The notes beneath the pieces are model-generated. The model had not been told where the DNA came from. It was given only the letters and a program-made list of their open reading frames with translations, and did no database searches. Source: Solimonas fluminis (lineage in GTDB: Bacteria > Pseudomonadota > Gammaproteobacteria > Nevskiales > Nevskiaceae). Taken from it: a stretch of 64,000 nt of DNA. This document shows, piece after piece, positions 9,224 through 53,436 of this stretch (position 1 is its first letter; every line of letters starts with the position of its first letter). The stretch is from NCBI RefSeq assembly GCF_002930645.1, contig NZ_PSNW01000017.1:1-64000 (forward strand), read 5' to 3'. The position numbers were made by a program, and so were the translations under genes.

Positions 9224-9234
9224 GCGGAGTTCCC

Positions 9235-9286: not shown

Positions 9287-9385
9287 GGGGTCGCCGTCCA
9301 TGGCGCGCCCTCTGCTCGCCCCTTGGCCCCGCGCCGCCTGATGGCGACGGTCCCGGAGCGCTGCAGCACGCGCTGGGCGCAGGCA

Positions 9386-9424
9386 AGAAAAAACCCGCCG
9401 GCAGCCTCTCGGCGCCGGCGGGTT
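9386..9424 (-). terminator. Rho-independent terminator of the SWIB gene
   Basis: Stem AACCCGCCGGC (9392-9402) / GCCGGCGGGTT (9414-9424); on the minus strand it is followed by a run of T (AAAAAA at 9388-9393 on plus). It lies 27 bp after the stop of the SWIB gene. Confidence 0.85.
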
Positions 9425-9450
9425 CGGGTACAGCGGCTACGGCAACAAGC

Positions 9451-9873: not shown

Positions 9874-10183
9874 TCTCCTGCTCCTCTCTATCCTGGACTT
9901 GAGATCGCTCTGCGGCGCAGAGCGTGCGGGTGTGAGATTTACACGAAAATTGCGCGGCGCGCGAGTGTTATTTCACGCAGGGCTTTCCCTGGGCGTTCTG
10001 AGGGAACGCCCCTGGGGGCCTCCCAGGGGGCGTGACGCCGTTCACACGGGGGCTCCGCTTAAGGAATTTTGAGGGTTTTCTTAAGCAGGATTTAACAACG
10101 CGCCGAGGGTGTCCCGCGTAGTCTGCACAGCCATCGGCGAAGCCTGTTTCGCCCTCGGAAAACCTGCTCTGGAGACTGCTGCA
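9874..10183. other. Divergent intergenic region with hairpins
   Basis: No gene is seen. It must hold the promoters of the SWIB gene and the hemerythrin-like gene. Visible structure: a GC-rich inverted repeat CGCCCCTGGG/CCCAGGGGGCG at 10007-10032, and GCTTAAG (10057-10063) / CTTAAGC (10080-10086) flanking an AT-rich stretch. No clear -10/-35 pair can be fixed. Confidence 0.4.
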
Positions 10184-10882
10184 ATGGAAGCTTTCGCGCC
10201 CCGCTACAACATCTACGCCGTGATCCACAAAGGCCTGCGCGCATGGATGGCCCACACGCTGCAGGCGCTGGGCCGCGCCGACTGGCTCGACGCCGAGGAC
10301 AGCGCCGCCGCGCTGGCCGAGCTGCGCAGCCTGCTGGCGGTCTGCCGCAGCCATCTTGCGCACGAGAACGACTTCATCCACCCCGCGATGGAAGCCCGCC
10401 GCCCGGGTTCCAGCGGCCAGACGCAGGGCGACCATGGCGAGCATGTCCGCGCCATCGACACCCTGCTGGCGCGCGCCGGCGCACTGGAAGCCGCCCGCGG
10501 TGCGCGCCGCGCGGAGCTGGGCTACGCCCTGTACCTGGCCCTGGCGATGTTCGTGGCCGAGAACCACGAGCACATGGACATCGAGGAGGTGCGCAACAAC
10601 GCCGCGCTCTGGGCCGCCTACGGCGACGCCGAGATCCTGGCCATCGAGCAGGCCCTGGTGGCCTCGATCCCGCCGCCGGAGATGATGCTCACCCTGCGCT
10701 GGATGCTGCCCAGCGCCAGCCATGGCGAGCGCTGCGCCCTGCTGATGGGCATGCGCGCCGGCGCACCGGCCGAGGTCTTCGCCGGGGTTCTGGGCATGCT
10801 GCAGCCGCTGCTCACGCCGCGCGACTGGACGCGCCTGCAGGACGCCCTGGCGCAGCCGGCGGAGATGGCGAAGGCGGCCTGA
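10184..10882 (+). CDS. Hemerythrin-like HHE-domain protein
   Basis: 232 aa. The N-terminal ~150 residues have the spacing of metal-binding residues of HHE/hemerythrin-like four-helix bundles: YAVIHKGLR, SHLAHENDFIHP, DHGEHVRAID and AENHEHMDIEE. These would hold a di-iron centre for O2/NO binding or sensing. The C-terminal part is helical and not recognised. The ATG follows a GGAGA site; a longer in-frame reading upstream lacks a ribosome site. A stand-alone gene with no clear operon partner. Confidence 0.8.
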   Translation: MEAFAPRYNIYAVIHKGLRAWMAHTLQALGRADWLDAEDSAAALAELRSLLAVCRSHLAHENDFIHPAMEARRPGSSGQTQGDHGEHVRAIDTLLARAGALEAARGARRAELGYALYLALAMFVAENHEHMDIEEVRNNAALWAAYGDAEILAIEQALVASIPPPEMMLTLRWMLPSASHGERCALLMGMRAGAPAEVFAGVLGMLQPLLTPRDWTRLQDALAQPAEMAKAA

Positions 10883-10911
10883 GCCTGGGCCCTGTAGCGG
10901 GGTTGCCGGTG

Positions 10912-12225
10912 CTAGGCGCCGGCAACCTCCACCAGCTTCAGCGGCTGTCGCACGCAGAGGCGGAAGCGCCCGCGTCCGGTCTTCTCCAGCCCCAGCAGGC
11001 TGCTGCGCTCCTGCAGGCGCCGGTGCAGCAGCAGCAGGCGCGCCTCCAGGTTGTCGGCGATGTCCGGCAGCGGGATGCTGGGGTCCAGGCGCAGCTCGCG
11101 GTTGCTGAACTCGGTGCGGCCGTCACGCTGGTAGTCGCGCAGCAGCTTCCAGAAGATCGCCCCGGCCACGCCCTTGATCAGGTAGTCCTCGCCCAGGAAG
11201 ACGCTGTCGTCCTCCGGGTAGTAGCGCACCTGCAGCGCGGCCTTGTCCGCCGGCGCCGCGTCGGCCGCCGCGGCGGGCCCGTCGGGCTCCGCGTCGCCGT
11301 CCTGCGCCAGCGCCTGCATGGCAAAGCCCAGCGTCACCGCCAGCGCCGCCAGCGCATCCTCGTGCTCGTAGCAGAAGGCCATCTCCTCCAGGCTTTCCAC
11401 GTAGAGCACGCCCTGCAGGCGGCCGCCGCTGGCGATCGGCACCGCCAGCTGGCTCTGCGGCTCGCGCAGCCCCGGCCAGGGAATCTCCGCCGCCGTGCCC
11501 GAAGCCGCCGCGCCGTAGATGTAATCCATGCTGGCGTAGGACAGGCGGATCGGCGTGCGCTGCTCCGCCGACACGCCGATCACGCCATGGCCCAGCGCGA
11601 TCTCCGAGCCCACGCCCGAGGCGCCGTAGCCGCGGCTGGCCACGGTATAGAGCCGGCGGCCGCCCTCGTCGAGCATCAGCAGCATCGAGTGCCGGATGCC
11701 GAACAGCTCTTCCAGCCCCGCCAGCGTACGGTCCAGCAACTCGTCCAGGCCGCCGCAGGCGGCGATCCGCTCGCCCATGCGGCGCAGCGGCGGCAGCAGG
11801 GGCGGGTGGGGGCGCTCCAGCGCCAGTACCGGCCCCGGCAGCTGCTCGATGTTCCTGACGCGGTAGACGTCGGCCCCCAGCAGCTTGAAGACACCGGCCA
11901 TGCCGGTATGCGAGGCCACGCCGGCCAGCTTCGCCTTCATGCGCTCGAACAGCGGCCCCTCCGGCTCCGTGCGCAGGTATTCCACGTCCAGCCGGTACTC
12001 CACCGCCGTCTCGGCATTGGCCACGCGCACGGTGGCGCGCGGGTCGCGCAGGATGTTCTCGCGGGTCTTGTTGAAGAACTGGAAGCTCAGCGCCACGTGC
12101 TCCGGGTCCACGTAGTGGACCTGCGAGACATAGGTGAGGTTGGGCATGCCCTCCGCGTCGCAGGTGGCGATCAGGCTCGGCACGCCGCCCTCCAGGCAGT
12201 CGCGGATGTGATCGACGCTGAGCAT
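10912..12225 (-). CDS. PNPOx-type flavin split-barrel + GAF + winged-helix-like C-terminal domain
   Basis: 437 aa. Residues 1-~150 resemble a pyridoxamine-phosphate-oxidase-like FMN-binding barrel (GVPSLIATCDAEGMPNLTYVSQV, HVALSFQFFNKTRENI). Residues ~165-320 form a GAF domain (LDRTLAGLEELFGIRHSMLLMLDE ... LAVPIASGGRLQGVLYVES). The last ~90 residues (EFSNRELRLD ... GRGRFRLCV) have a winged-helix look with a C-terminal basic hairpin. The arrangement suggests a flavin- or small-ligand-controlled sensor/regulator. The start is set at the ATG that overlaps the upstream stop (ATGA), so it is co-translated with the gene at 12225-12710. Confidence 0.75.
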   Translation of the reverse strand: MLSVDHIRDCLEGGVPSLIATCDAEGMPNLTYVSQVHYVDPEHVALSFQFFNKTRENILRDPRATVRVANAETAVEYRLDVEYLRTEPEGPLFERMKAKLAGVASHTGMAGVFKLLGADVYRVRNIEQLPGPVLALERPHPPLLPPLRRMGERIAACGGLDELLDRTLAGLEELFGIRHSMLLMLDEGGRRLYTVASRGYGASGVGSEIALGHGVIGVSAEQRTPIRLSYASMDYIYGAAASGTAAEIPWPGLREPQSQLAVPIASGGRLQGVLYVESLEEMAFCYEHEDALAALAVTLGFAMQALAQDGDAEPDGPAAAADAAPADKAALQVRYYPEDDSVFLGEDYLIKGVAGAIFWKLLRDYQRDGRTEFSNRELRLDPSIPLPDIADNLEARLLLLHRRLQERSSLLGLEKTGRGRFRLCVRQPLKLVEVAGA

Positions 12226-12710
12226 CAGGCGCCGGGCCTCAGCCGCTCGCCGGCGCGCGGACCGGGCGTCTGCATGTAGACCGCCGCCGGCGTGAAGCGC
12301 ACCCAACAGAGCTGACCGGGCTCGTGATGCAGCAGCGCCTCGGTGAACTCCGCCGTGAAGCCGGCCACCGCGATCTGCGTGGCGAACGCCGCCCGGTGCG
12401 CCGCCGCCCGCGCCTCGTCGCCGGGCAGCGCCGGCTCCACGCGGGCGTCGCGGCCCTTCACCTGCAGCGTCTCGTGCGTCGCCGGCAGGGAATAGCTCGC
12501 CGCCACCCAGCCCTCGGCGCGCAGCTCCGCCACCAGCGGCGCCGCGCGCGATGCGCAGACCAGGATCGCGATCTGGTCGCGCGCCTCGGACACGCGGCAG
12601 GCCAGGCCGCGCGCGATCGTCGTGCGCCGCGCGTCGTCGCGTGCGGCGAGCGAGATCGACACCGGGCCCTGGATGAAAGCGGCCTGTGCGCGGCTGAGTT
12701 CGGGAACCAT
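12225..12710 (-). CDS. Small PNPOx-like flavin split-barrel protein
   Basis: 161 aa. The pattern of a pyridoxamine-phosphate-oxidase-related fold is visible: PVSISLAARDDARRTTIARGLACRV, ILVCAS, ETLQVKG, FTPAAVYMQTPGP. It probably binds FMN or a related cofactor, but no catalytic residues can be named. First gene of a two-gene operon with the PNPOx-GAF protein (4-nt stop/start overlap). The ATG lies inside a perfect 18-bp inverted repeat and 6 nt after CATAAT, with no SD, so the mRNA is likely leaderless. Confidence 0.7.
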   Translation of the reverse strand: MVPELSRAQAAFIQGPVSISLAARDDARRTTIARGLACRVSEARDQIAILVCASRAAPLVAELRAEGWVAASYSLPATHETLQVKGRDARVEPALPGDEARAAAHRAAFATQIAVAGFTAEFTEALLHHEPGQLCWVRFTPAAVYMQTPGPRAGERLRPGA

Positions 12711-12737
12711 GGCGGCATTATGCCGCCATGGTTCCCG
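12701..12737. repeat. Perfect 18-bp inverted repeat with 1-nt centre over a start codon
   Basis: Left arm 12701-12718 and right arm 12720-12737 are exact reverse complements (CGGGAACCATGGCGGCAT and its complement) around a single T at 12719. The left arm contains the minus-strand start codon at 12710; the right arm mirrors it with an ATG on the plus strand. The centre contains CATAAT/ATTATG, usable as a -10 box in both directions. Confidence 0.85.
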
Positions 12738-12896
12738 TCGGGGCATCACCGACAAACTGTCTCGTCCGGACCATGCCGGCCGCCGCGGACACGGTATGCT
12801 GTCCGCCATGGTCCCCCTGCCGCGTCGCTGCGGTCCTCACGCCCGGCGTGATTCGTGCAGGACACTCCAAGACAACGGGACCCGGGGAGGAACACC

Positions 12897-13316
12897 ATGA
12901 ACACGATGCAGCTGATGCCGGAGCAGGCCCTGCCGGCCTACCGCGACTTCCTGCGCCAGGTCCTGAGCGAGGTGGTGGGGCAGATGAGCGGCGAGCCCAG
13001 CCTCACGCGCCTGACACGCGCCATGCAGGTCTACTGGGACGCCTGCTTCGCCCGCCGCGACCAGCGCACCGCCGCAGTGCAGGCCGCCGAGGGCACCCGC
13101 TATGCCGAGGAGTTCGAGCCACTGGGCCAGCCCTTCCTCAAGCTGCTGCGCGCCGAACTGGCGCGCATCGGCTGCCCGCAGGCCGACGAACTGAGCCGCG
13201 ACGTCTACCTCTGCGCGCGCAACATCACCGTGGAAGAGGCCCGCACCGGCCGCCGCGAAGTGCAGAACCGCCAGAGCCTGCTGTTCATGCTGAGGCAGTC
13301 CGCCCTCGAGCATTGA
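12897..13316 (+). CDS. Conserved-looking hypothetical protein, helical
   Basis: 139 aa with no family I recognise. Mostly alpha-helical and charged (LRQVLSEVVGQMSG, RLTRAMQVYWDACFARRDQ, LLRAELARIGC); no signal peptide or membrane segment. The ATG follows a strong GGGGAGGA ribosome site at optimal distance, and codon choice (G/C at third positions) supports a real gene. Longer readings in other frames over this stretch lack such a site. It precedes an AraC regulator by 115 bp. Confidence 0.75.
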   Translation: MNTMQLMPEQALPAYRDFLRQVLSEVVGQMSGEPSLTRLTRAMQVYWDACFARRDQRTAAVQAAEGTRYAEEFEPLGQPFLKLLRAELARIGCPQADELSRDVYLCARNITVEEARTGRREVQNRQSLLFMLRQSALEH

Positions 13317-13431
13317 GCGGGCGGTCCCCGCGCGGAGCCGTCGGGGTCGGGGACCGGAGCCTGTCGCCGCCGCGGCGGCAGCCTGGGCCGGCCCTACGAG
13401 CCCGCATCCGGGTTGTGGCATCGTATCCGCC

Positions 13432-14478
13432 ATGACCCAGGCCCCCGCCGCCAGCACGCCCAGCCCCGCCGAAGATCCGCGCTACGAAGCCGCCATCTTC
13501 CCGGTGTTCCTGCTGCAGACCCTGGCGCAGGTCGCCGGCCAGCGCGGCGTCGAGCCGCAGGCCCTGTGCCGCGGCCTGGGCTTCGGTCCCGAGGACCTCG
13601 ACGATCCCGGCTTCCGCGTCTCCTACCGCCAGGCCAGCCTGATGATCCGCCGCGCCCTGCAGATGGTGCCGGGCGACGCCCTGGGCCTGGCCGTGGGCAA
13701 CCGCAACGTGCTGGGCACCCTGGGCCTGCTGGGCCACGCCGTCTCGCTGTGCCGCACCCTGGGCGATGCCTTCGACATCGGCCTGCGCTACCAGGTCACC
13801 GCCGGCGGCATCACCCAGACCAGCCTGCGCCTGTCCGGCCCGGAGCTGTGGGTGGAGGCCGGCTTCCGCTTTCCCGATGCCGAGATCCAGGTCTTCGTCG
13901 TGGAGGAGCTGTTCGCCAGCCTGCTGGTCTACGGCCGCAGCCTGGTGGGTGCGCACTTCGCGCCGCTGCGCGTGGAACTGGCCTATCCGGCGCCTTCCTG
14001 GGCCGCGCAGTACCAGGCCCTGTTCGGCGCCCCGGTGAGCTTCGGCGCCGCGCAGAACCGCTGCGTCATCGAAGCGCGCTGGCTGCTGCACGAGTTGCCC
14101 AACCACAACCCCCTCGCGTTGAAGCAGGCCCTGGCGCTGCTGGAGGCCGAGAACGCCCAGGTGCGCCAGAAGATGGACCTGGCCGCGACCATCGAACGCG
14201 CCATCGAGAAGACCCTCACCCAGGGCCCCAGCCTGGAGAGCATCGCCGGCGAGCTCAACATGAGCGGCCGCACCCTGCGCCGCCGCCTGGGCGACCAGGG
14301 CCTGAGCTTCGAGACCCTGCTCAACAACGTGCGCCGCACCCGCGTGATGAGCCTGCTGGCCAACCCCGAGCTGCCGATCGAACGCGTCGCCGAGCAGTCC
14401 GGCTACGCCGACGTGCGCAGCTTCCGCCGGGCCTTCAAGCGCTGGACCGGCATCAGCCCCAGCGAATTCCGCCACTAG
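13432..14478 (+). CDS. AraC/XylS-family transcriptional regulator (OruR/arabinose-binding-like N domain)
   Basis: 348 aa. Residues ~40-225 match the Arabinose_bd-type N-terminal ligand domain found in OruR and similar regulators; residues ~250-348 contain the double helix-turn-helix (SLESIAGELNMSGRTLRRRL and PIERVAEQSGYADVRSFRRAFKRWTG). It is likely a ligand-dependent activator. The gene directly downstream in the same direction (DUF2505-type) is a plausible target, though regulators of this group often act on divergent catabolic genes. Confidence 0.9.
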   Translation: MTQAPAASTPSPAEDPRYEAAIFPVFLLQTLAQVAGQRGVEPQALCRGLGFGPEDLDDPGFRVSYRQASLMIRRALQMVPGDALGLAVGNRNVLGTLGLLGHAVSLCRTLGDAFDIGLRYQVTAGGITQTSLRLSGPELWVEAGFRFPDAEIQVFVVEELFASLLVYGRSLVGAHFAPLRVELAYPAPSWAAQYQALFGAPVSFGAAQNRCVIEARWLLHELPNHNPLALKQALALLEAENAQVRQKMDLAATIERAIEKTLTQGPSLESIAGELNMSGRTLRRRLGDQGLSFETLLNNVRRTRVMSLLANPELPIERVAEQSGYADVRSFRRAFKRWTGISPSEFRH

Positions 14479-34794: not shown

Positions 34795-35298
34795 GGATAC
34801 ATTCCTTTAGGTGAAAACGGGCTGGCCGCCCGCGAGGCTGCAACAACAAGGAACGCATCGAGAATTTCAAACCGCGCGAAACGCGGAGGAACTGCTGATA
34901 ACACTGCTTGAAGCTTGCCCACACAGCATACGGGAACGCGCCTGCTTTGGCCACGCCGCCGGTCGGATGCCCGTATCCCGGCGGGCCCGGCGCCGCTCCA
35001 AGCTGTTGTAATGGAGGAAAATGCAGCTGCCGGCCATCAGCTTCGTCCCCTCCCGTTGCGCGAGGGAGGGCGGAGAGGGTGATCCCGAGCCAGGCAACGC
35101 AAGAGCCGTCGCCGCGAAGAGGCTCCTGGCCAGAGTTGCCGCTCGTGCTGAGCCTGTCGAAGGACGGGCGGCAACCGGGTAGCCAAGCCCGGGAGCCGTT
35201 CACCCTTGCGCAGGCCCGGGGGCGAACGGCAAGGCGGATCTCTCTCTCCATCCCGGATGATCCGGGGTCTTCTCCCGCCACCTTCAGGGGCAAACCCC
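34795..35298. other. Gene-free region: cold-shock leader/promoter and repeats
   Basis: No gene is supported in these 504 bp. The part next to the cold-shock gene (34795-34930) is AT-richer and probably holds its promoter and 5' leader. At 35045-35080 lies CCCTCCCG...CGAGGGAGGG...GGAGAGGG (family B style), at 35135-35174 a family A repeat, and near 35254-35270 CCCGGATGATCCGGG, a small hairpin. Confidence 0.5.
35135..35174. repeat. REP-like palindrome (family A)
   Basis: Arms GTTGCCGC / GCGGCAAC enclose CTCGTGCTGAGCCTGTCGAAGGACGG. The core GTGCTGAGCCTGTCGAAGGA is the least degenerate copy in the window. Confidence 0.7.
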
Positions 35299-42420: not shown

Positions 42421-42543
42421 GCTGGCCAATGTGCTCAACCCCGCTGCCTCCTTCACCTGCAGTTCTGATCCTGTCGAAGGATTTCAGGGTGATTGACGCC
42501 CTGGTTGGCCTCTCCACCCCCGGTGCAAAACTCTTCCTCCAGG

Positions 42544-43670: not shown

Positions 43671-45680
43671 CTACGGCGTGGCCGCAGGTATGCCCAAGTC
43701 GACAAGGTACTCAAAGGTTGGGTCATAGAAAGCAGGAGATCGAGTGGCGTCCTCTGGATCCCCCGGGGGGACAAAAATCACCATTCCCTGGCGGGCGCGG
43801 GTTAGCAAGACTCTGTATGCGTTTCGTAGGTAGAGGCGGCTTTCTCGTTGATGGATGTTGCACCACTGGCTTCCACGGAAGTCGTGATGTCCCCAGCCCT
43901 CTCCGTTGAATCGGAGATCACCGTCCCAGGTAACGCAGGTCCAGTCTAGCTCCAGGCCTTGCACTTGGAACTCTGTTGCTGCGTCCTCTAGATAGTAGCT
44001 CGACCGCGTGTCGTTACTTTCATTCAGAAACCAATGGACAGGGTCGATCTCAACGCGGATGTCGATAGCATGAGGTTTGAGGCGCTGAGCCTTCGAGGAG
44101 GCAAGGAGGCCATATCGCTCAGACCCGCGGGCGCGCTTGCGTATCCATTGCTTAGCTACAGATAGATCGCGGGTTACCGCGATGGGGTAGCGCGTAATGA
44201 GTTCGGCCAGCGATTTGCGTGCCCCCTCCCGCTCGCAGTCGAGAAGGGCTTTCACGAAGCCTGAGACATTCTCCGCTCGGAAGGAGCGCATTGATACGCC
44301 CAGGTGCAGACATGCGTCGAAGTGAGTGAAAGGTCGTTGGCGGCACTGCTCCAGGGCCATGCCTGCAGCATATTCGCTGTCGTCCAGTTTGGACGATACG
44401 TACATATGCCAGCCGGGGAATTTGGAGTTGATTGCTTCGATCCATGCGTCAATTCCGGCCTCTCCGGTGTTTATTTCCTGGCCGCCACCCACCAAGCAGA
44501 CGATAACCGCCCAATCTTTATGGCGATCCATACAGGAGATGAGGAACTCCGGTTCTGACTGCGAGAAGTCAGGGCGTCCCTTCTTCCTGCTCATGAAGCT
44601 AGCTGTCTGCTTGAGGTTCCATGCTCGTTGGGCTTCATCAAAGATGACGACGTGCTCGACGGGGGCCCCGGTATCGTCCAGACAGTCATCCCGAAAATGA
44701 TGAACGTTCTGGATGAAGGCTTTGATGCTTTCTCTGATCACTCCCTTTCGAGCCTTGCTGTTGTCGCTTTTCTGGCGAGCGAACTCGTCTCTTGTGAGGG
44801 CTTCCCTGAGGACTGCCACGAGAGGGCCATTACCGGATAGGAAAACAGCATGAGTCGGAAGGTCTTTGTCGCGATGCTGTGTGGCGACATTAAGGCCCAC
44901 CAAGGTTTTCCCGGCGCCAGGGACGCCCGTCACAAAGCAAATAATCTTGTAGTTGTTCGCCCTCGCTTCTTCCACGAGGTCGTCAATTTTTTTGGAGGTG
45001 AATTGAAGATTCTTCGCGCCCGCATCATTTCGCGCAATGTTCTCAACCGAGTGCCGGGCGTATAGGGAGCGTGCCGCTTCGATGATCGTCGGCGTCGGCA
45101 GATAGGAGCCCGAAGCCCAAGATTTGGCGTTCATGCTCTCGGCGGAAATGGCAGCGAGGGCGGCTTCCAAGGCCGCCTTGAACCCATTCGGGTGTACTGC
45201 AATGGGTCGGTAGACCGAGTCGTGATCGGCCGTCAATGCGACTGCTTTGGAAGTGGTGGCGCCCGAGGCGATGAGCATCGGGACAAGGGTTGCCCGATGA
45301 CTGGTCGCGTGAAAGTTCTTTAGGTCTAAGGCGTAGTCCCAGACCTGATTGAGAGCCGTTTGGTCGAACTGGCTGGCGCCGACCTTAAATTCAACGACGA
45401 AAATAGCGGGGCCGATGAGTAGAATCACATCGACTCTTCGGCCCATGCGCGGAATGCTGAACTCAAAGTAGACATGGCCAGCGAAACCGCGCAACTCGGA
45501 CTGGAGGAAGTGAATTTGGTATGACCAAGAGACCAATTGCGCGTCATCCACTCCCCGACCGCCAATGGTGAGCTGACCTACGATGATGTTCTGGGGTGTC
45601 TGCAGGAACTCAGATATAGGCGCTCCATACCAAGCACGAGATGGAGAGGTGGCTGTCAGAGGCTGGTTCGGCGAATCCAT
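43671..45680 (-). CDS. DUF2075-type nuclease-helicase fusion (candidate defence gene)
   Basis: 669 aa from ATG at 45680 (SD GAGGA upstream; a GTG 20 codons earlier is possible). Residues ~75-100 (MGRRVDVILLIGPAIFVVEFKVG) have the D ... E-x-K pattern of a PD-(D/E)xK nuclease. Residues ~245-600 form a superfamily-1-like DUF2075 helicase/ATPase: Walker A TGVPGAGKT, Walker B VVIFDEAQRAW, sensor-type IVCLVGGGQEIN, and late RNAYRVLLTRARQGMVIF. Codons are AT-richer than in neighbours, pointing to horizontal acquisition. It sits between two toxin-antitoxin modules. A role in phage or plasmid defence is inferred. Confidence 0.75.
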   Translation of the reverse strand: MDSPNQPLTATSPSRAWYGAPISEFLQTPQNIIVGQLTIGGRGVDDAQLVSWSYQIHFLQSELRGFAGHVYFEFSIPRMGRRVDVILLIGPAIFVVEFKVGASQFDQTALNQVWDYALDLKNFHATSHRATLVPMLIASGATTSKAVALTADHDSVYRPIAVHPNGFKAALEAALAAISAESMNAKSWASGSYLPTPTIIEAARSLYARHSVENIARNDAGAKNLQFTSKKIDDLVEEARANNYKIICFVTGVPGAGKTLVGLNVATQHRDKDLPTHAVFLSGNGPLVAVLREALTRDEFARQKSDNSKARKGVIRESIKAFIQNVHHFRDDCLDDTGAPVEHVVIFDEAQRAWNLKQTASFMSRKKGRPDFSQSEPEFLISCMDRHKDWAVIVCLVGGGQEINTGEAGIDAWIEAINSKFPGWHMYVSSKLDDSEYAAGMALEQCRQRPFTHFDACLHLGVSMRSFRAENVSGFVKALLDCEREGARKSLAELITRYPIAVTRDLSVAKQWIRKRARGSERYGLLASSKAQRLKPHAIDIRVEIDPVHWFLNESNDTRSSYYLEDAATEFQVQGLELDWTCVTWDGDLRFNGEGWGHHDFRGSQWCNIHQRESRLYLRNAYRVLLTRARQGMVIFVPPGDPEDATRSPAFYDPTFEYLVDLGIPAATP

Positions 45681-46372
45681 TGCTGAGATGGTCCTCACAG
45701 ATTTTCTATCATTCTGGGTCAAGGAGGCTGTGGACACCACAGGGGGCCTGGTCGACTAGTTGAGTATTGGACTAAAGAAAAACGGAACTCCGTTATGACT
45801 TCCGCTCCCTCCGGCGTAACCTATTCCCATCGAGCCAGGCCTCACGCTGGAACCCCCAACGACCGAGGCCCAGCGCATACCGGGATCGATCTCACCCACC
45901 CGGCCCATGCCCTCACGGCTCCACAACTTCCCGCAGTAGAACGATTGCCGGGCTAACCCAGTAGGGCTCTGCTAGCGCATCCGCGAACGAGTCCCGGGTC
46001 CGCCTGCTGTCGGTGCTCATTAACAACACGGTATTGCTGCCCGCCGGGCCGTCTCCACCAGGGGAGCCCGCGCAGCGCGACGGGCGTGCCTGGACGAGGC
46101 GCCCGCGGAGACAACGGCTGGCCGCAAGGTCAGGGCAAAGCCACGAACAGCGTGGAGGGCCCCCAGCGCACAGGCGCTGGGGATCCTTAGCGTCGTGAGT
46201 TGGCGGTTGGAACTCCCAGAGGGTCGAGAGCGCCATCTCTCCGGAGTCGGCCCGGCGGAGCAGGTTTTTGACGGGGCAGGGGCCTTGCGCTTCCTGCCTC
46301 CCGGATTCTAGCGGGTGGCGTCAGCCGGGCCCGCGGGTCCATCCATTCCAGAGGGAACGCTCGTGGACAGAT
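45681..46372. other. Gene-free stretch between nuclease-helicase and AbiE-type module
   Basis: About 690 bp in which I see no credible gene. Open frames here (for example on minus 45913-46236 and plus 46013-46198) have odd Pro/Arg/Ser-rich composition and no ribosome sites. It may be decayed coding DNA. Its right end carries the first copy of the 35-bp direct repeat. Confidence 0.4.
46317..46351. repeat. 35-bp perfect direct repeat, distal copy
   Basis: Identical to 47710-47744, where the same bases encode the last nine codons and stop of the lasso cyclase gene (WNGWTRGPG, stop). The copy here lies 21 bp beyond the AbiEii-type stop and is not attached to a cyclase gene. Flanks are also weakly similar (CTAGCGGG just outside both copies). 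Confidence 0.85.
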
Positions 46373-47104
46373 TTATTTGCCAGCCGCTCGCCGTGCCAGT
46401 TCCCGCTCGTGCTCATTGAACATCTCCGTGAGCCACGCCCTGCAGGACTCGAAGTCCGAGGGGATATCCAGCAGGGATGTGACCGGCGGATCATCGGCCC
46501 GGCGCCGGCCATACAGGATCCGCTGCTTGATCAACTCGCCGCCCGCGCCCATCGTCTCGGCGGCCTGCAGCAATTCGGGAATCCCGCGCTGGTCTCGCAG
46601 CAGCACGCGCAGGTCAAAGAAGTCCCGCGCCGCGATGCGCTCCTCTGGCAACTGCGCCTTCAACAGGAAGATGCTGTCTTCGGATGCCACGCGGATATGC
46701 CCGGAGTCCAGGTCTTTCACAGGTGCTGCGCTCACCAGTGTCGCGGCATCCAGCAGCTTGCCATCCGGATAGACTCGCTTCGTAAAGAAGTCGAGCTTCA
46801 CTCCATCCACTGTCCAGCGCAGGCTGTAGAGTTCGGGGTCTGGGTCGCCGGGGCCGCGTTCCAACGCCGCCTCCATGTCCACGCGCCGGCTCACCTTCAA
46901 GCCCTGGTCTCGTAGCTGTGCCAGCATCGCGAAGATCTGGTGCTTGTCGATCGTGCCGGCTGCCAGAAAGTCCAGGTCTTCGCTTAGCCGGTGTTCCAGG
47001 CGCATCGCCAGTGCGGTGCCGCCCACCAGCACGTAGTCAGCCATCGCAGGAAAGACGCGCAGCCGCTCGAACAGACCCCGGGTCTTGTCAGGCAGCCCGC
47101 GCAA
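46373..47104 (-). CDS. AbiEii/AbiGii-type nucleotidyltransferase toxin
   Basis: 243 aa. The nucleotidyltransferase motif GGTALAMRLEHRLSEDLDFL (residues 28-47: GG[ST] plus paired acidic residues ED-x-D) is that of AbiEii/DUF1814 proteins, the toxin part of AbiE-type abortive infection systems (some transfer nucleotides to tRNA). A later conserved acidic/basic stretch (KDLDSGHIRVASEDSIFLLKAQLPEERIAARDFFDLRVL) also fits. It overlaps the upstream gene by 17 bp, giving a bicistronic toxin-antitoxin layout. Confidence 0.88.
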   Translation of the reverse strand: MRGLPDKTRGLFERLRVFPAMADYVLVGGTALAMRLEHRLSEDLDFLAAGTIDKHQIFAMLAQLRDQGLKVSRRVDMEAALERGPGDPDPELYSLRWTVDGVKLDFFTKRVYPDGKLLDAATLVSAAPVKDLDSGHIRVASEDSIFLLKAQLPEERIAARDFFDLRVLLRDQRGIPELLQAAETMGAGGELIKQRILYGRRRADDPPVTSLLDIPSDFESCRAWLTEMFNEHERELARRAAGK

Positions 47105-47573
47105 GGCCGATCTCCACGTTCGCCAACGTCCGGGCAGATTCCTTCAGGCTCCAATCCTGCAGGTCGCCGGCGCTCGCCATCGCCTGGAAGACCTTGCGCA
47201 CCTTCGGCAGGCCATAGTGCAGCACCAGACGCAGCACATCCTCGAAGGAAGGCTGCGCCAGCACGCTGGCAATCAGGGTGGTTTCCGGCAGTGCTTCCGG
47301 AGCGGCGCTCCAGATGCGGTTGAAGGACAACTCCGGCGCGCCTGCGGTTGTGGCGGCCAAGGCGATGCCCGTCTTCCGTCGCCCGCCTTGCTCGCCTGGG
47401 CTCAGAGTCAGGTAGCCCTCCGCCGCCAGCTTTTTCACTTGGTCAAACACCCGCCGATACGGTCGCCCAAGCTTCGCCGCCAGGTCATAGACGCTATCCA
47501 CCCGGCCGCCCTCGGCCTTGAGGCAATCGATCAGCGCCTGCTGGGTGGCGGTCAGCAATGTCATATATGACAT
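47088..47573 (-). CDS. Putative cognate antitoxin of the AbiEii-type toxin (winged-helix)
   Basis: 161 aa. The N-terminal ~65 residues resemble a winged helix (TATQQALIDCLKAEGGRVDSVYDLAAKLGRPYRRVFDQVKKLAAEGYLTL), followed by a helical C-terminus (SVLAQPSFEDVLRLVLHYGLPKVRKVFQAM). It precedes and overlaps the toxin, the standard order of antitoxin first. It is not a close match to the classical AbiEi family by eye. The ATG lies in a 16-bp perfect palindrome that may be its own operator. Confidence 0.7.
   Translation of the reverse strand: MSYMTLLTATQQALIDCLKAEGGRVDSVYDLAAKLGRPYRRVFDQVKKLAAEGYLTLSPGEQGGRRKTGIALAATTAGAPELSFNRIWSAAPEALPETTLIASVLAQPSFEDVLRLVLHYGLPKVRKVFQAMASAGDLQDWSLKESARTLANVEIGLARAA
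47558..47573. promoter_or_regulatory. Perfect 16-bp palindrome over the antitoxin start codon
   Basis: ATGTCATATATGACAT is an exact palindrome; its minus-strand reading begins with the antitoxin ATG. A DNA-binding antitoxin bound here would block transcription or early elongation. Confidence 0.6.
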
Positions 47574-47709: not shown

Positions 47710-47744
47710 GGCGTCAGCCGGGCCCGCGGGTCCATCCATTCCAG
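47710..47744. repeat. 35-bp perfect direct repeat, copy at the cyclase 3' end
   Basis: Contains the stop codon (47714-47716) and last nine codons of the asparagine-synthetase-like gene. Identical to 46317-46351; the distance between copies is 1393 bp and encloses the AbiE-type pair. Confidence 0.85.
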
Positions 47745-49558
47745 GGCAGGCGCTCCAGCGCCGCCCATTCCCCGGCGGCGTGGCGCAGGAAGGCCCGCTG
47801 CCAGCTCAGGTATCCCATCAGCGCCACCACGGACCGCGTGGACGCATTCATCAGGCCAAACTGCAGCGCTTCGATCTCGGCGCGCACGCTCGGCGCGTGT
47901 ATCCATCCCGCCGGGCAGTCGTCCACCAGGGCGTGGAAGTACTCCCGCGCCTGGTTGAAGTAGCGCAGCTGGAAGGAGTTGAACACGAAGGTGTCGTTGG
48001 CCCGGGCGCGCAGGCTCTCCGGCACCACGCCCTTCTGGGCCTCGCGCAGCAGCTCCTTGTAGCGGCCGTTGAAGTCGTGCACCAGCAGCGCGCTGACGTG
48101 GTCGTACACGTAGTCGATCAGCCGCAGGTCGCAGAACGGCGAGGCATCCTTGAGGCCGCGGCGCGCAAAGTGCGGCGCGGTCACGGCGCGCGTGGCGGCA
48201 AAGTAGCCCCAGTTGTCGCAGATGATGCCGTCGCCCAGCAGCTCGCGCTCGCGCTGCCGCCGCTGGTCCTCGTACTCCGCGCGCCGGTCGTTGGCCCGCA
48301 GCCAGGTCACCGGCGCGTGCAGCAGGCGGTCCTGGTTCACGTCGCAGACGTCCAGCGGGTCCCACTTCCACTTCGCCGTGTGCCGCGCCATGCGGTAGTA
48401 CAGCTCTCGCGGTATCTGCGAGACCAGGCTCTGCACGGCCAGACTCACCGGGCTGCGGCTCATCAGCCGCGCCGCCGGCCGCAGCGCGTTGAGGAACGCG
48501 CCCCACTGCCGCCGCTGCAGCAGGTAGGGCAGCATGGCCGGAGACCGCAGGAAGAGCTGGTCCGCGCCAAAGCCGGTGAACACCAGCCCGCCCGGCCGCG
48601 TCATGCGCGCCACCGCCTCGGAGAACAGCTCGCCAAACCAGAAGAAGTCGCTGGGCTCGTCGCTGTAGGCCGGCTCCATCTGCGGCACCGCCGGCAGCTC
48701 GTCCGGCGGGATCACCCGCAGGTCTATCCCGTAGCGCTCCGCCACCTCCCGCGCGTAGCCCTCGCTGACGTGGTGGGAGGGCACGTTGGGCTGCGAGAAC
48801 ATCACCCCCTTGGCCCCGGTGGTCACCTCGCCCACCAGGCAGGCCACGAAGGACGAATCCAGCCCGCCGGAGATCTCGATGCACACGTCCGCGCCCGGCG
48901 CCGCATGCAGGTGGTCCTGCACGGACTCGCGCAGCAGCCGCAGGATCTCCGGCGCCACGTCCTCGCGGCGCTGCTGCGGGTCCAGCTGGTACTGGTAGCT
49001 GCGCGTCACCAGCGCGCGCCTGGCCACGCGGCGCCCCAGCGTCACCAGCTCACCCGGCAACACGCGCCGCACGCCCGCCAGCGGCGTGCACTCGGCGTGG
49101 AACTGCGAGCCGGGCACGATCAGCGTGTGCCGGCCAAAGTATTCCTCGTCCCACTGCGCGCCGGGCGGTCCGGCGTGGAAGGGGAACAGCCGGTTGCCGA
49201 ACAGCGCCGGCTCCTCGCGGTAGTAGAGCTGGTGCTGGCCGGTCAGGCTCTTGAAGCCATGCACCGCCTCCTGCGTGACGTAGCAGGCCACGAAGTCGCC
49301 CGTCACCTCGGTGAAGGCCTCCGGCCCCCGCTCGCGCAGGCGCGCCAGCAGCGCCTGCACCGGCGCCGCCACGCGCTGCCCGTCGATGCGGAAGATCGCT
49401 CCCTCCACCAGCAACGCGCCCTGCGCGTCGGCCGCCCGCCGGGTGCCGGGGCCCGCGCGCCAGCGCGGCTCCGCACTGCCCTGCACCAGGAAGACCTCGC
49501 CGGTTTCGGCCTGACATTCCGCGCCCTGCTGCGACTGTTGAGGAAACCCCATCTGCAT
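47714..49558 (-). CDS. Lasso peptide cyclase (asparagine-synthetase-like, C protein)
   Basis: 614 aa. The N-terminal ~200 residues are a class II glutamine amidotransferase-like fold without the catalytic Cys2 (it starts MQMGFPQ), as usual for lasso C proteins. The synthetase domain has the PP-loop IEISGGLDSSFVACLVG and later DASPFCDLRLIDYVYDHV. It adenylates the ring Asp/Glu of the core peptide to form the macrolactam. Candidate starts are 49573, 49567, 49558 and 49552; the B2 gene begins divergently on overlapping bases. The last nine codons are the 35-bp direct repeat. Confidence 0.9.
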   Translation of the reverse strand: MQMGFPQQSQQGAECQAETGEVFLVQGSAEPRWRAGPGTRRAADAQGALLVEGAIFRIDGQRVAAPVQALLARLRERGPEAFTEVTGDFVACYVTQEAVHGFKSLTGQHQLYYREEPALFGNRLFPFHAGPPGAQWDEEYFGRHTLIVPGSQFHAECTPLAGVRRVLPGELVTLGRRVARRALVTRSYQYQLDPQQRREDVAPEILRLLRESVQDHLHAAPGADVCIEISGGLDSSFVACLVGEVTTGAKGVMFSQPNVPSHHVSEGYAREVAERYGIDLRVIPPDELPAVPQMEPAYSDEPSDFFWFGELFSEAVARMTRPGGLVFTGFGADQLFLRSPAMLPYLLQRRQWGAFLNALRPAARLMSRSPVSLAVQSLVSQIPRELYYRMARHTAKWKWDPLDVCDVNQDRLLHAPVTWLRANDRRAEYEDQRRQRERELLGDGIICDNWGYFAATRAVTAPHFARRGLKDASPFCDLRLIDYVYDHVSALLVHDFNGRYKELLREAQKGVVPESLRARANDTFVFNSFQLRYFNQAREYFHALVDDCPAGWIHAPSVRAEIEALQFGLMNASTRSVVALMGYLSWQRAFLRHAAGEWAALERLPWNGWTRGPG

Positions 49559-49940
49559 GTTCGTCATATCCATGAACGCCGTGTTGCTCGTCCTGTCCTT
49601 CCTCGGCACCAAGTTCCTCGGCCTGGACCGCACCGTCCGCCTGGTCTCCGGCCTCGGCCGGCGCTTCCGCCCCCTGTTCCGCGCCAAGCCGGCGGCGGAC
49701 ATCGCCGCCGGCGTCCAGCGCGGCCTGCGCTTCCTGCCGTTCCCCATCGAGTGCCTGGATCAGGCCATCGTCACCTGGTACCTGCTCAACCTGCGCGGCC
49801 ATGCCGCCGCGCTGCGCGTGGGCATGAAGCTCTCCCCGGTCAGCGGCCACGCCTGGGTGGTCAACGGCCCCCAGGTCTTCGTGACCACGCCGGGGCTCGA
49901 GGACTTCACGGTGGTGGCGGAGTATCCGGGGTGGGTTTGA
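49557..49940 (+). CDS. Lasso peptide leader protease (B2, transglutaminase-like)
   Basis: 127 aa. Matches lasso B2 proteins: FPIECLDQAIVTWYLLNLRGHAAALRVGMKLS with the catalytic Cys, then GHAWVVNG with the catalytic His. The Asp usually found about 12 residues after this His appears to be Thr (VFVTTPG). It should cleave the leader of the precursor with help of B1. The start may be 49557 (GAGGA 13 nt upstream) or 49572 (MNAVLLV). It reads opposite to the rest of the cluster: divergent from C and convergent with B1. Confidence 0.88.
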   Translation: MFVISMNAVLLVLSFLGTKFLGLDRTVRLVSGLGRRFRPLFRAKPAADIAAGVQRGLRFLPFPIECLDQAIVTWYLLNLRGHAAALRVGMKLSPVSGHAWVVNGPQVFVTTPGLEDFTVVAEYPGWV

Positions 49941-49978
49941 TCTGAACCCTGAAGAGGCGAAGGATCTCGGATGGAGTT

Positions 49979-50106
49979 TCCGTTCGCCCTGAAGTCCTGA
50001 GCTTGTCGAAGGATCGAAGGGTGGGCGGAAACCGACTAACCTCGGCTGGCGGAAGTCCGCCCGTACTTCGATCCTTCGACAGGCTCAGGACTTCAGCACG
50101 AACGGA
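49979..50106. repeat. Long inverted pair of family A repeats between convergent B2 and B1
   Basis: Arms of 29 bp (49991-50019 and 50066-50094, one mismatch) contain the CTGAGC(C/T)TGTCGAAGGATCG core; outer arms TCCGTTCG / CGAACGGA extend the symmetry after 4-nt bulges. It could act as a bidirectional transcription stop. Confidence 0.85.
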
Positions 50107-50144
50107 CTTCTTCAAGTGCCTGGGCGAACCCGCTCAGCGTTGAG

Positions 50145-50432
50145 CTACTTCCTCACCTCCACCAGCTTCAACCCCGCCAACTCCCCCACCAGCTCCGCCA
50201 GGTCCTGGTGGATTTCCGCCTCCGGCGCGTTGTACTCCGCGCCGATCTGCTTCGCGGCCTGCAGCGAGTCCGCGGCAAACAGCTTGGCCAGCATCTCCGC
50301 GCCGATATCGTTGAGGCCATAGGACTCCCCCGTGCGCGTGGAAAACAGCACGGACTTGCCCTCGATGCGGGTCAGGGTCACGCCCTTGGCCAGGCTGGCC
50401 TTGAAGGCGGGTGTCTGCGGGGATGCGTTCAT
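50145..50432 (-). CDS. Lasso B1 / PqqD-like RiPP recognition element protein
   Basis: 95 aa, PqqD fold: GVTLTRIEGKSVLFSTRTGESYGLNDIGAEMLAKLF followed by a helical C-terminus. PqqD-like B1 proteins bind the leader peptide (YxxPxLxxxG motif) and deliver it to the B2 protease. It follows the ABC exporter on the same strand after 42 bp, so precursor, exporter and B1 are probably one transcript. Confidence 0.9.
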   Translation of the reverse strand: MNASPQTPAFKASLAKGVTLTRIEGKSVLFSTRTGESYGLNDIGAEMLAKLFAADSLQAAKQIGAEYNAPEAEIHQDLAELVGELAGLKLVEVRK

Positions 50433-50474
50433 CGTCGTTCCTGGATGCTTGAGTCAGTGATGCAGGGCGACGCC

Positions 50475-52340
50475 TCAGGCGACCGCCTGTTCGGGTTCCT
50501 GGCGGAAGAGGGAATGCCCCGGCTCCAGCGCGTCCGCCTGGTGGCGCCAGAGGCTGGCGTAGAGGCCGCCGCGCTCCAGCAGTTCCCGATGCGTGCCTTG
50601 CTCGGCCAGCCGACCGCCGTCCAGTACCAGGATGCGGTCCATGCGCATCAGTGTGGAGAGGCGGTGCGCAATCGTGATCATCGTGCGGCCGCGGCCCAGC
50701 GCCTGCAGTTCCGCCTGTATGGCCTGCTCCGCCTCGCTGTCCAGCGCCGCGGTGGGCTCGTCCATGATCATGATGGGCGCGTCCTTCAGGATCGCGCGCG
50801 CCATCGCGATGCGCTGCCTCTGCCCGCCGGACAGCTTCACGCCGCGCTCGCCCACGATCGCCGCATAGCCCTCGCGCCCGTCCTCGTCGCGCAACGCACG
50901 GATGAAGCCGTCCGCCTGTGCCTGCCGCGCGGCACAAGCCACGTCCGCCGGCGGCGCGCCGGGCTGGCCGTAGCGGATGTTGTCCAGGATGGACCGGTTC
51001 ATCAGCGCCACGTCCTGCGTCACCACGCCGATCGCGGCGCGCAGGCTCTCCTGCGTCACCTCGCGGATGTCCTGTCCGTCCACCAGGATGCGACCCTCGC
51101 GGGCGTCGAACAGCCGCAGCAGCAAGTACACCAGCGTGGACTTGCCCGCGCCGCTGCGCCCCACGATGCCCACCTGCTCGCCGGGCCGTATCGTCAGGTT
51201 GAAGCCGCTGAACACCTCCGGCCGTCCCTCGTAGCCGAAGCGCACGTCCTCGAAGCGGATCTCGCCGCGCGTCACCGCCAGCAGCTTCGCCTGCGGCAGG
51301 TCGGTGAGCGTACTGGGCGCGGCGATGGACTGCATGCCGTCCTTCACTCCCGCCACGTTCTCGAAGATGCCGGCGATTTCCCAGGCCACCCAGCCGGCGG
51401 TGCTCGCCATCTGCCAGCACAGCGGCAGGGCCATCGCCAGCGCGCCCGCGCCCACCAGTCCCTGCAGCCACAGATGGATGCCGATGCCCGCCGTGCCCGC
51501 CAGCAGCGCGGTGTTGAGCAGCGCCAGGCCGAAGATGAAGCTCGTGATCATGCGCATGTGCCGGCGCTGCGCCAGGTCATGCGCCTCCAGCGCCTCGCGC
51601 GCGTAGGCGTCCTCGCTGTCCTGCCGGGCGAAGAGCTTCACCATCAGGATGTTGCTGTAGCTGTCCACGATGCGGCCCATCAGCGCGGAGTAGGCCTGCG
51701 CGTTGGCGCCGGCCAGCACGCGCAGCCGCGGCACGTAGCGGCGCAGCAGCAGCCCGTAGCCCAGGAACCAGGCCAGCACCGGCAGCGCCAGCCGCCAGTC
51801 TGCCTGGCACAGCAGCAGCAGCGAGGTGCCGCCGTAGATCGCGATGTACCACACCGCGCGGATGCCGGCCTCCACGCTTTCGCGCAGCGCGCCCGGCAGG
51901 TGCATCACCCGGCTGGCGATGCGCCCCGCCTGGTCGTTCTGGAAGAAGGCCCAGGGCTTGCGGATCAGGTGCCAGTGGCTCACCCAGCGGATGCGCGAGG
52001 TCACGCGCGGCACCAGCAGGCTGTTGCGCAGCATCAGGTCCAGCAGCAGCAGCGCCGGCCGCAGCAGCAGGAACACCGCCGCCATCAGGCCCAGCGTCGG
52101 CAGCGCGGCGGTGAATGCGGCCTGGCGGTCGGTGGCGCCCACCAGCGTGACGATCCAGCCGATGAAGACCGGCACCATCGCGTCGGCGATCGCCACGCCG
52201 CTGCCGATGAGCATCAGCGCCAGGAACAGGCGCCTGTGCTCGGAGAGAAAGTATCGGTAGAGCGCGCGTAGCGACTGCGGCGGCTGCTCCCGCGGAGGCG
52301 GGGCCGTCACGTCCACCAGCTTCTCGAAGCGCTCGAACAT
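50475..52340 (-). CDS. ABC exporter of the lasso cluster (D protein)
   Basis: 621 aa. Half-size ABC exporter with a six-helix membrane domain (~35-320) and an ATPase domain: Walker A GRSGAGKST, Q-loop VTQDVALMNRSI, signature KLSGGQRQRIA, Walker B IMIMDEPTAAL. No C39 peptidase. In lasso clusters this protein exports the mature peptide and gives self-immunity. It lies between precursor and B1, separated from the precursor by a hairpin. Confidence 0.9.
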   Translation of the reverse strand: MFERFEKLVDVTAPPPREQPPQSLRALYRYFLSEHRRLFLALMLIGSGVAIADAMVPVFIGWIVTLVGATDRQAAFTAALPTLGLMAAVFLLLRPALLLLDLMLRNSLLVPRVTSRIRWVSHWHLIRKPWAFFQNDQAGRIASRVMHLPGALRESVEAGIRAVWYIAIYGGTSLLLLCQADWRLALPVLAWFLGYGLLLRRYVPRLRVLAGANAQAYSALMGRIVDSYSNILMVKLFARQDSEDAYAREALEAHDLAQRRHMRMITSFIFGLALLNTALLAGTAGIGIHLWLQGLVGAGALAMALPLCWQMASTAGWVAWEIAGIFENVAGVKDGMQSIAAPSTLTDLPQAKLLAVTRGEIRFEDVRFGYEGRPEVFSGFNLTIRPGEQVGIVGRSGAGKSTLVYLLLRLFDAREGRILVDGQDIREVTQESLRAAIGVVTQDVALMNRSILDNIRYGQPGAPPADVACAARQAQADGFIRALRDEDGREGYAAIVGERGVKLSGGQRQRIAMARAILKDAPIMIMDEPTAALDSEAEQAIQAELQALGRGRTMITIAHRLSTLMRMDRILVLDGGRLAEQGTHRELLERGGLYASLWRHQADALEPGHSLFRQEPEQAVA

Positions 52341-52430
52341 TCTGGAATCAGGAAAGGGCGGGTCGGTTGAGGTCTTGCCCGCCGTGTTGTCCGGCCATGG
52401 GGGAGACGCCAGGCCGTGTCATGCAGTCAA

Positions 52431-52459
52431 GGACTGCCCCGGGGTTGCCGGGGCAGTCC
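52431..52459 (-). terminator. Hairpin between precursor gene and exporter gene
   Basis: GGACTGCCCC (52431-52440) / GGGGCAGTCC (52450-52459) with a 9-nt loop, 12 bp downstream of the precursor stop. The minus-strand sequence after it (TTGACTG) lacks a real T run, so partial termination or 3'-end stabilisation of a short precursor mRNA is more likely than full termination. Confidence 0.6.
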
Positions 52460-52470
52460 CTTGCTGCTTC

Positions 52471-52584
52471 TTACTTGAAGAAGCCGGCGTACTGCTTGCC
52501 GTCGGAGCTCGGGCCCGTCGAGTTGGACTTGATCAGGGCCAGGGTGCCGAGCTTCACCAGAACGGGCTTCACGTAGGTCTTCAT
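52471..52584 (-). CDS. Lasso peptide precursor (A), 37 aa
   Basis: MKTYVKPVLVKLGTLALIKS is the leader: Tyr4, Pro7, Leu9 and Gly13 fit the YxxPxLxxxG motif recognised by B1. The following NSTGPSSDGKQYAGFFK is the likely core: counting from the leader motif, Asn1 would close on Asp8 (8-residue ring), leaving tail GKQYAGFFK with bulky Tyr/Phe plugs. A 9-residue ring starting at the preceding Ser is the alternative. The Thr normally at position -2 of the leader is Lys here. GGAGT lies 4 nt before the ATG. First gene of the A-D-B1 transcript. Confidence 0.82.
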   Translation of the reverse strand: MKTYVKPVLVKLGTLALIKSNSTGPSSDGKQYAGFFK

Positions 52585-52812: not shown

Positions 52813-53436
52813 TCACGCCGCCTCCAGGCAAGGCTGGAAATACACCCGCGCCTTCTTGCGGCACTGCGAGACGTACTCGCGCGTCGCGCCCACGCTGCGT
52901 CCGAGGGCGACCGCGATGTCGCTCATGCTCATGTCGCCGCGGCTGGCCCAGGCGAGCCCGCGGGCCCGGTCGGGGAAGTCGCGGCGGAAGGCCGCGAACT
53001 GCCGGCTCACCAGGGCCCGGTGCTGCTGGCTCTCCAGCTCCTCCTCGGGCCCCGCCGCGCCGCAGGCCACCGTCTCGCGCAGCGACAGGCCGCTGTCGTC
53101 GGCCTCGTCCAGCGAAGCCATCTGGCTGTCCCTGCGCCGCCGCGCGTCGATCATCACGTTGCGGGCAATCGCCCACATCCAGCCGGCAAAGGCCGCATCC
53201 GCTTCCAGCGAGCCCACGCCGCGCATCACGCGCAGGAAGGTGTCCTGCACCCAATCGTCCGCCATCGCCCGATCCGCGCCCTGGCTCTGGTACCAGGCCG
53301 CCAGCCGCGGGGCGGCGCTGCGGTACAACAGGGCCAGCGCTTCGCGCTGCCGCTCGCCATTCGCCTTCAGGTCCGCGAGCAATGCCGCGGTGGCTGTCGC
53401 CGGAAGGCTGCGGGTTTCTGCTCTGCGGGCGTCCAT
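52813..53436 (-). CDS. ECF-type RNA polymerase sigma factor
   Basis: 207 aa. Region 2 (LYRSAAPRLAAWYQSQGADRAMADDWVQDTFLRVMRGV ... FAGWMWAIARNVMIDARRRR) is typical sigma-70 ECF. Region 4 is present (SMSDIAVALGRSVGATREYVSQCRKKAR). No anti-sigma gene is seen next to it. It lies 228 bp upstream of the lasso precursor on the same strand, so it could control that cluster, but this is inference from position. No SD is visible before the ATG. Confidence 0.88.
   Translation of the reverse strand: MDARRAETRSLPATATAALLADLKANGERQREALALLYRSAAPRLAAWYQSQGADRAMADDWVQDTFLRVMRGVGSLEADAAFAGWMWAIARNVMIDARRRRDSQMASLDEADDSGLSLRETVACGAAGPEEELESQQHRALVSRQFAAFRRDFPDRARGLAWASRGDMSMSDIAVALGRSVGATREYVSQCRKKARVYFQPCLEAA

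Follow-up and report, generated by a model that had tools for sequence, protein, structure and literature searches.

The window analysed here is a 64,000-nucleotide stretch of Solimonas fluminis DNA (contig NZ_PSNW01000017.1, positions 1 to 64,000 of the forward strand), and this work concerns a putative lasso peptide biosynthetic cluster located between its positions 47,714 and 52,584. An earlier note, prepared from the sequence alone, had placed five lasso parts there: a precursor (A), an ATP-binding cassette (ABC) exporter (D), the two parts of a split B protein (B1 and B2), and a cyclase (C). All five were recovered, each as an open reading frame:

52471..52584, minus strand: precursor A, 37 amino acids (aa), with a YxxPxL...G leader and a predicted ring acceptor, Asp28; open frame, kept in 13 loci.
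50475..52340, minus strand: D, ABC exporter with membrane and ATPase domains (PF00664 and PF00005 over cut-off); present in 13/13 loci.
50145..50432, minus strand: B1, PqqD-type leader-binding protein, 95 aa (PF05402 over cut-off).
49557..49940, plus strand: B2, transglutaminase-like leader peptidase, 127 aa (NF033537 and PF13471 over cut-off).
47714..49573, minus strand: C, asparagine-synthetase-like lasso cyclase, 619 aa from the preferred start (PF00733 over cut-off).

The gene order described in the note was borne out as well: A, D, and B1 lie on the minus strand, B2 on the plus strand, and C again on the minus strand, with B2 tail-to-tail with B1 and head-to-head with C, and with overlapping B2 and C starts. 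The start codon of C was picked by comparison with homologues, and its frame stays open upstream to 49747. The host genome contains a single PF13471 match and a single precursor A. The presence in the window of a split-B lasso peptide cluster whose B2 gene is turned round is thus supported.

In profile searches, B1 scored 36.5 bits against the PqqD model (PF05402, cut-off 23.4) and matched NF033530 (lasso_PqqD_Strm) with an E value of 7e-11, under that model's cut-off. B2 passed both the lasso-specific model NF033537 (lasso_biosyn_B2, 61.7 bits, cut-off 33) and PF13471 (58.4 bits, cut-off 26), and retains Cys66 and His98; a search for a solved structural relative of B2 returned a single, chance-level match (E 0.17). 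C was assigned by Asn_synthase (PF00733, 71.3 bits, cut-off 21), and D by ABC_tran (113.8 bits, cut-off 25) and ABC_membrane (54 bits, cut-off 28). Recognition of the precursor by a model was not counted as defining the lasso class.

Related loci were sought with B2 in several genome sets. A pattern scan of genomes confirmed at least three (Solimonas sp. SE-A11, a Solimonas metagenome-assembled genome (MAG), and a Bradyrhizobium MAG). Among 194 genomes comprising the host and its relatives (E up to 0.001), there were four matches: the host itself, G001, G003, and a weak one in G002. A search of 398 genomes of the phylum (E up to 1e-10) returned the host genome only, and a search of 297 genomes of the order of the Bradyrhizobium MAG (E up to 1e-12) returned only that MAG. 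Finally, 341 genomes of the family of the Bradyrhizobium MAG (E up to 1e-8) yielded ten genomes with matches, including G818. G818 (E 3.4e-9) and G002 (E 9e-4) were left out of the family counts because the nested layout described below is absent in both; precursor A was found neither in the G002 genome nor in the examined stretch of G818. The resulting family consists of 13 loci in 12 genomes: three Solimonas loci and ten loci in nine genomes that we call alphaproteobacterial, since they were drawn from the family of the Bradyrhizobium MAG. One alphaproteobacterial genome, G827, carries two family loci. A precursor search in the 12 family genomes and G002 found A once in 11 genomes and twice in G827, and all 13 loci hold A, D, and B1. 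Compared to the window, the alphaproteobacterial loci are 70-78% identical in A and only 44-59% identical in B1, B2, C, and D (49-58% for B2). An all-against-all comparison of frames of at least 90 aa revealed no further gene common to the alphaproteobacterial and Solimonas loci; the other recurring frames overlie the five lasso genes or occur in few loci.

The position and orientation of B2 are conserved throughout the family. B2 lies on the strand opposite to B1 in 13/13 loci (three Solimonas and ten alphaproteobacterial), and in all 12 loci that hold C it is antisense between B1 and C, with B2 broken in one of them. The 3' ends of B1 and B2 overlap by 28-56 nucleotides (nt) in 9/9 alphaproteobacterial loci with an intact B2, while the two genes are separated by 204, 281, and 329 nt in Solimonas. 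On the other side, the starts of B2 and C are 48-63 nt apart in each of the eight alphaproteobacterial loci where both genes are intact, and overlap in all three Solimonas loci; start codons were picked by comparison across loci, and these positions may shift. The place of A is more variable: it lies ahead of D on the same strand in eight loci (three Solimonas and five of one alphaproteobacterial clade); in the other alphaproteobacterial clade (five loci), it is found past C, on the strand of B2. A tree of D, whose root is unsure and whose outgroup branch is very long, resolves three groups, Solimonas and the two alphaproteobacterial clades, and the nested layout occurs in all three. Thus, nested B2 probably predates the split of the alphaproteobacterial clades, and A has moved at least once. 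The inversion of B2 is not a local accident. In six alphaproteobacterial pairs, the ratio of nonsynonymous to synonymous substitution rates (dN/dS) of B2 was 0.11-0.20, a clear result for selection on this gene that Solimonas does not match. The earlier note had made its proposal depend on conservation of the precursor frame in homologous clusters; when this comparison was run, the 37 codons recurred in 13 loci.

To evaluate how unusual the arrangement is, 45 B2-like places outside the family were collected from 274 genomes of the class of the window, 289 genomes of the class of the Bradyrhizobium MAG, G002, and G818, and were paired with PqqD and asparagine synthase matches in the same 38 genomes; the searches for these matches took in G827 as well. 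No PqqD or no asparagine synthase match lay within 8 kb in 24 of the 45 places, and these were set aside. The neighbours in the remaining 21 controls are profile matches near B2 and are putative lasso genes, and a few weak C neighbours may be missing from the asparagine synthase matches listed. Among the matches listed, all three genes were on one strand in 12 controls and on mixed strands in nine; B2 opposed co-oriented B1 and C in 4/21, and lay between them on the opposite strand in 0/21. Mixed strands are therefore ordinary, and it is B2 antisense between B1 and C that marks this family. The view taken in the earlier note that the mixed-strand order is unusual holds for this nested placement, and not for mixed strands alone.

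The precursor is more conserved than the other four products when the alphaproteobacterial loci are compared with the window. All 13 precursors have Y4, P7, and L9, followed by LIKSN, one variable residue, and TGPS[ST]DGK[KQ]Y[AS]G[FY]FK, so that the core, N[SAH]TGPS[ST]DGK[KQ]Y[AS]G[FY]FK, is nearly fixed over two bacterial classes. Averaged over 78 pairs, the nonsynonymous difference was 0.084 in residues 20-37 versus 0.157 in residues 1-19, at similar synonymous differences (0.505 and 0.541, respectively). In lasso precursors the core is usually more variable than the leader, and an unchanging core would then point to a fixed partner. Asp28 is unchanged in 13/13 precursors and is residue 7, 8, or 9 counted from each possible N terminus. 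Thr at position -2 is absent in all 13; depending on the cut site, Lys, Ile, or Ser occupies this position.

Without the Thr(-2) that normally marks the cut, the core start proposed in the earlier note is not settled, and three cuts, before Asn21, Ser20, or residue 22, were considered. Judging from the sequences, the most likely products are an 8-residue ring from Asn21 with Lys(-2) and a 9-residue ring from Ser20 with Ile(-2), which we hold about equal: the spacing of the YxxPxL motif favours the former, and the kind of residue at -2 the latter. According to the available excerpts of PMC10368454, Thr(-2) is usual and no longer universal, with Ile(-2) proven for BsfA of the Bradymonas bsf cluster; the residue at -1 of BsfA is basic by our own reading of the gene printed there. 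A cut before Ser20, rather than before Asn21 with its Asn-Asp ring of eight residues, would likewise leave Ile(-2) and Lys(-1) and would give a Ser-Asp ring, and Ser is among the first residues seen by experiment (PMC12670498, in the portion available). The same cut would put the leader Tyr at -16, while YxxPxL always spans -17 to -12 according to the PMC10368454 excerpts, and we consider the chance of the Ser20 cut to be appreciable, somewhat short of even. Tyr at -17 would give Asn21, and Asn as the first residue is known from metanodin, where it is supported by mass spectrometry (PMC12670498, same portion). The third cut, before residue 22, would leave Ser(-2) and a 7-residue ring; it is less likely, residue 22 being the variable position of the precursor.

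Several non-coding features and one further gene bear on how the cluster may be transcribed:

52423..52467, minus strand: strong hairpin directly after A, no U run (fold z -6.5, 0/200 shuffles as stable).
49994..50091, no strand assigned: large imperfect palindrome in the B1-B2 gap, with TCCTTCGACARGCTCAGGAC in both arms (fold z -10.9).
35145-35164, 42462-42481, and 49994-50091, no strand assigned: copies of TCCTTCGACARGCTCAGGAC found by word search of the window.
52813..53436, minus strand: extracytoplasmic function (ECF) sigma factor gene adjoining A (profile matches; Solimonas loci only).

A stable hairpin follows A in 13/13 loci (z -2.4 to -6.5, at most 4/200 shuffles as stable). By eye, it carries a U run in the five loci where A lies beyond C, and mostly none where D follows. 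This pattern suggests that the hairpin is a terminator in the former loci and that in the latter it stops transcription in part or serves for processing; in the window, the hairpin between A and D is a probable processing or partial-termination element. The word TCCTTCGACARGCTCAGGAC is scattered in the window in four copies with up to two mismatches (0 expected), two of which form the B1-B2 palindrome, which may act as a terminator in both directions. None of the other family loci contains the exact word; in the two Solimonas loci outside the window, inspection by eye showed a variant of it in the stretch that separates A from the sigma gene. Between B1 and C, the scan of the operon strand for perfect-stem terminators was negative in 11/12 loci and gave a weak site in G677. 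An Rfam search of the region gave seven matches at E up to 1, all under gathering scores.

Each of the three Solimonas genomes that carry the cluster has the ECF sigma gene ahead of A, and the surroundings are of two different kinds; a search at E up to 1e-20 did not find the gene in the one Solimonas genome that lacks the cluster. The gene is part of the module in Solimonas only. A promoter word shared by the sigma gene and A was sought, and the three Solimonas loci have no 8-base word in common. A structured element upstream of A was also considered, and was dropped because hairpins there are mostly no stabler than shuffles (z -2.3 to +0.7 in 13 loci).

That the locus directs lasso peptide biosynthesis is very likely. 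From the protein families, A would be made as a 37-residue precursor, whose YxxPxL leader would be bound by B1 and removed by B2; C would then join the new N terminus to Asp28, so that a ring of 8 or 9 residues encloses the tail GKQYAGFFK, and D would export the lasso product. It is likely, too, that these loci define a lasso peptide family that is new and whose interleaved layout is conserved. The B2 gene is a stable antisense insert between B1 and C, and the cluster is possibly a noncontiguous operon. In such an operon, one long transcript running antisense through B2 would carry D, B1, and C, headed by A in the window, and B2 would have a separate promoter close to where C begins, an arrangement that would tie the level of B2 inversely to that of the other parts.

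A number of observations weigh against this interpretation. The precursor falls under both lasso-leader cut-offs (PF19397, 20.6 versus 22.6 bits; NF033521, 13.2 versus 19 bits), all precursors depart from Thr(-2) as described, and the NCBIfam macrolactam and lasso-cyclase models match C under their cut-offs. In Solimonas, dN/dS of B2 is 0.35-0.53, and an antisense-frame control, carried out for two Solimonas pairs, identified one antisense frame about as constrained as B2 in both pairs. As for transcription, read-through in this genome could end at the 49994-50091 palindrome, and the 48-63 nt between B2 and C in alphaproteobacterial loci could also hold two divergent promoters. The perfect-stem terminator scan is weak, as it detected sites after A in only 5/13 loci. 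On the B2 strand, terminator-like sites lie downstream of B2 in 4/12 loci. A promoter search over 6.8 kb detected a single candidate site (0.4 expected by chance), and this site does not precede B2 or C.

A rival to a spanning transcript is that B2 and C are two divergent units served by back-to-back promoters, with D-B1 transcription ending in or before B2 and the layout being historical and non-regulatory. The short distance between B2 and C starts in alphaproteobacterial loci fits this explanation, and the mixed strands of 9/21 controls, among the matches listed, imply that lasso enzymes tolerate separate units. On the other hand, the overlapping B2 and C starts in Solimonas leave no intergenic promoter space, an operon-strand terminator between B1 and C is lacking in 11/12 loci by the weak scan, and the tight B1-B2-C layout persists in two classes. 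We take two separate units to be a serious contender, a little under an even chance. The gene arrangement of a noncontiguous operon, an opposite-strand gene among co-oriented genes, is present in 12/12 loci with C, and the absence of an operon-strand terminator in 11 of them is only compatible with a spanning transcript. The noncontiguous-operon transcription step is put forward tentatively, and is not placed above separate units. A broader proposal would join these elements: antisense B2 would act as a built-in switch, in which D-B1-C transcription through B2 would limit the peptidase so that precursor, binder, cyclase, and exporter accumulate before cutting; the peptidase would have shifted from Thr(-2) to Lys(-2); and the fixed core would serve a conserved receptor or partner rather than warfare. 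We regard this combination as unlikely.

It is improbable that the peptide is trimmed and left uncyclised, or belongs to another kind of ribosomally synthesized and post-translationally modified peptide. The low leader-model scores and the missing Thr(-2) would fit such a product, but B2 passes a lasso-specific model, the precursor is accompanied by B1, B2, C, and the exporter, and Asp is available at residue 7, 8, or 9 in every precursor. An assembly error, or else a recent and meaningless inversion that affected B2 in this genome only, perhaps by way of the large inverted repeat in the B1-B2 gap, is hardly credible and was rejected, because the opposed orientation of B1 and B2 recurs in 12 other loci (with B2 lying between B1 and C in the 11 that hold C), these loci lack the exact repeat word, and overlapping B1 and B2 ends leave no room for a repeat in nine alphaproteobacterial loci.

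The two family loci of G827 differ in content. L034 has intact A, D, B1, and B2, and no C was found in it: a tblastn search at up to E 10 returned only short pieces, the best of which (E 0.008) was a stretch antisense to B2. L040 has intact A, D, B1, and C, and its B2 is interrupted by two stops, with similarity limited to roughly the first 90 residues. G827 has five asparagine synthase matches and, among the four matches listed, only that of L040 sits at a lasso locus. Judged by gene content, L034 and L040, which jointly provide one full enzyme set, may complete each other. In the fourth Solimonas genome, G002, a different B2-like gene, an opposite-strand asparagine synthase match, and an exporter-like gene lie at about 6600-13500 of locus L052; no PqqD match was found within 8 kb of the B2-like gene, and L052 is perhaps a separate lasso-type cluster.

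Beyond the cluster itself, a search of 72,556 plasmids with B2 (E up to 1e-5) came back empty, and scanning viral contigs by pattern led to no confirmed relative; the idea of a widely spread mobile element was rejected on these grounds. With a threshold of E 1e-100, D gave one plasmid match (44%), next to a frame of 1948 aa that resembles a nonribosomal peptide synthetase by eye only; hmmsearch around this match, covering frames of 40 aa or more and hence no precursor, found no B1, B2, or C. Just beyond C in the window, within 46373-47573 on the minus strand, lie a small gene of winged-helix-like type (PF25212, barely over cut-off) and, after it, an AbiEii-type nucleotidyltransferase gene (PF08843 over cut-off); the two are probably a type IV toxin-antitoxin or abortive-infection pair, as judged from the profiles. 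A 689-aa open frame at 43671-45740 (minus strand) near the cluster has Walker-type motifs by eye (GVPGAGKT, DEAQR).

The family combines an odd gene layout common to two classes, a near-invariant core, and a leader lacking the usual cutting mark. Were the noncontiguous operon real, it would provide a test case for antisense control of peptide maturation; a cut after Lys(-2) would widen the tolerance of lasso peptidases and the rules of genome mining. A literature search, which missed most subscription journals, found no paper combining 'lasso peptide' with 'Solimonas' and none containing any of four core strings. No title or abstract opening retrieved for the layout and the alphaproteobacterial genera describes a nested B2, and the passages of PMC8498205 matched by term search contain nothing on B2 orientation. 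AntiSMASH lassopeptide-type clusters appear for Afipia genomes in the available part of PMC12282010, so members of the window's family may already be flagged automatically. In Sphingomonas BPH, a transposon in a lasso B2 gene was among phenanthrene-use-deficient mutants (PMC11006600, excerpts); nothing ties that cluster to the one in the window.

Among known systems, the closest in content are the split-B clusters, with B1 as the PqqD-type recognition element and B2 as the peptidase, which are usual in actinobacteria and firmicutes (PMC10368454, excerpts). The window shares with them the A, B1, B2, C, and D content, the YxxPxL leader, and an Asp at ring position 7-9, and differs by B2 antisense between B1 and C, the lack of Thr(-2), and a near-fixed core. 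Cebulassopins are reportedly, by title, lasso peptides from a split biosynthetic operon; going by that title alone, their lasso genes, like those of the window, are not in one operon. The Bradymonas bsf cluster likewise has split B1 and B2 and departs from Thr(-2), with Ile followed by a basic residue as in the window if the cut is before Ser20; in the same excerpts, it has a kinase, a nucleotidyltransferase, and another core, and its spacing rule would give the window Lys(-2). Metanodin has Asn as its first ring residue, like the window if the cut is before Asn21; as far as the available portion of PMC12670498 goes, its cluster is of the classical ABC type, was selected for gene colinearity, and includes an isopeptidase gene, and its precursor retains Thr(-2) and has a core unrelated to that of the window. 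Finally, noncontiguous operons are described in the accessible part of PMC7154746 for the menaquinone genes of S. aureus, some E. coli operons, and phages, and the window likewise has an opposite-direction gene inside a co-oriented run.

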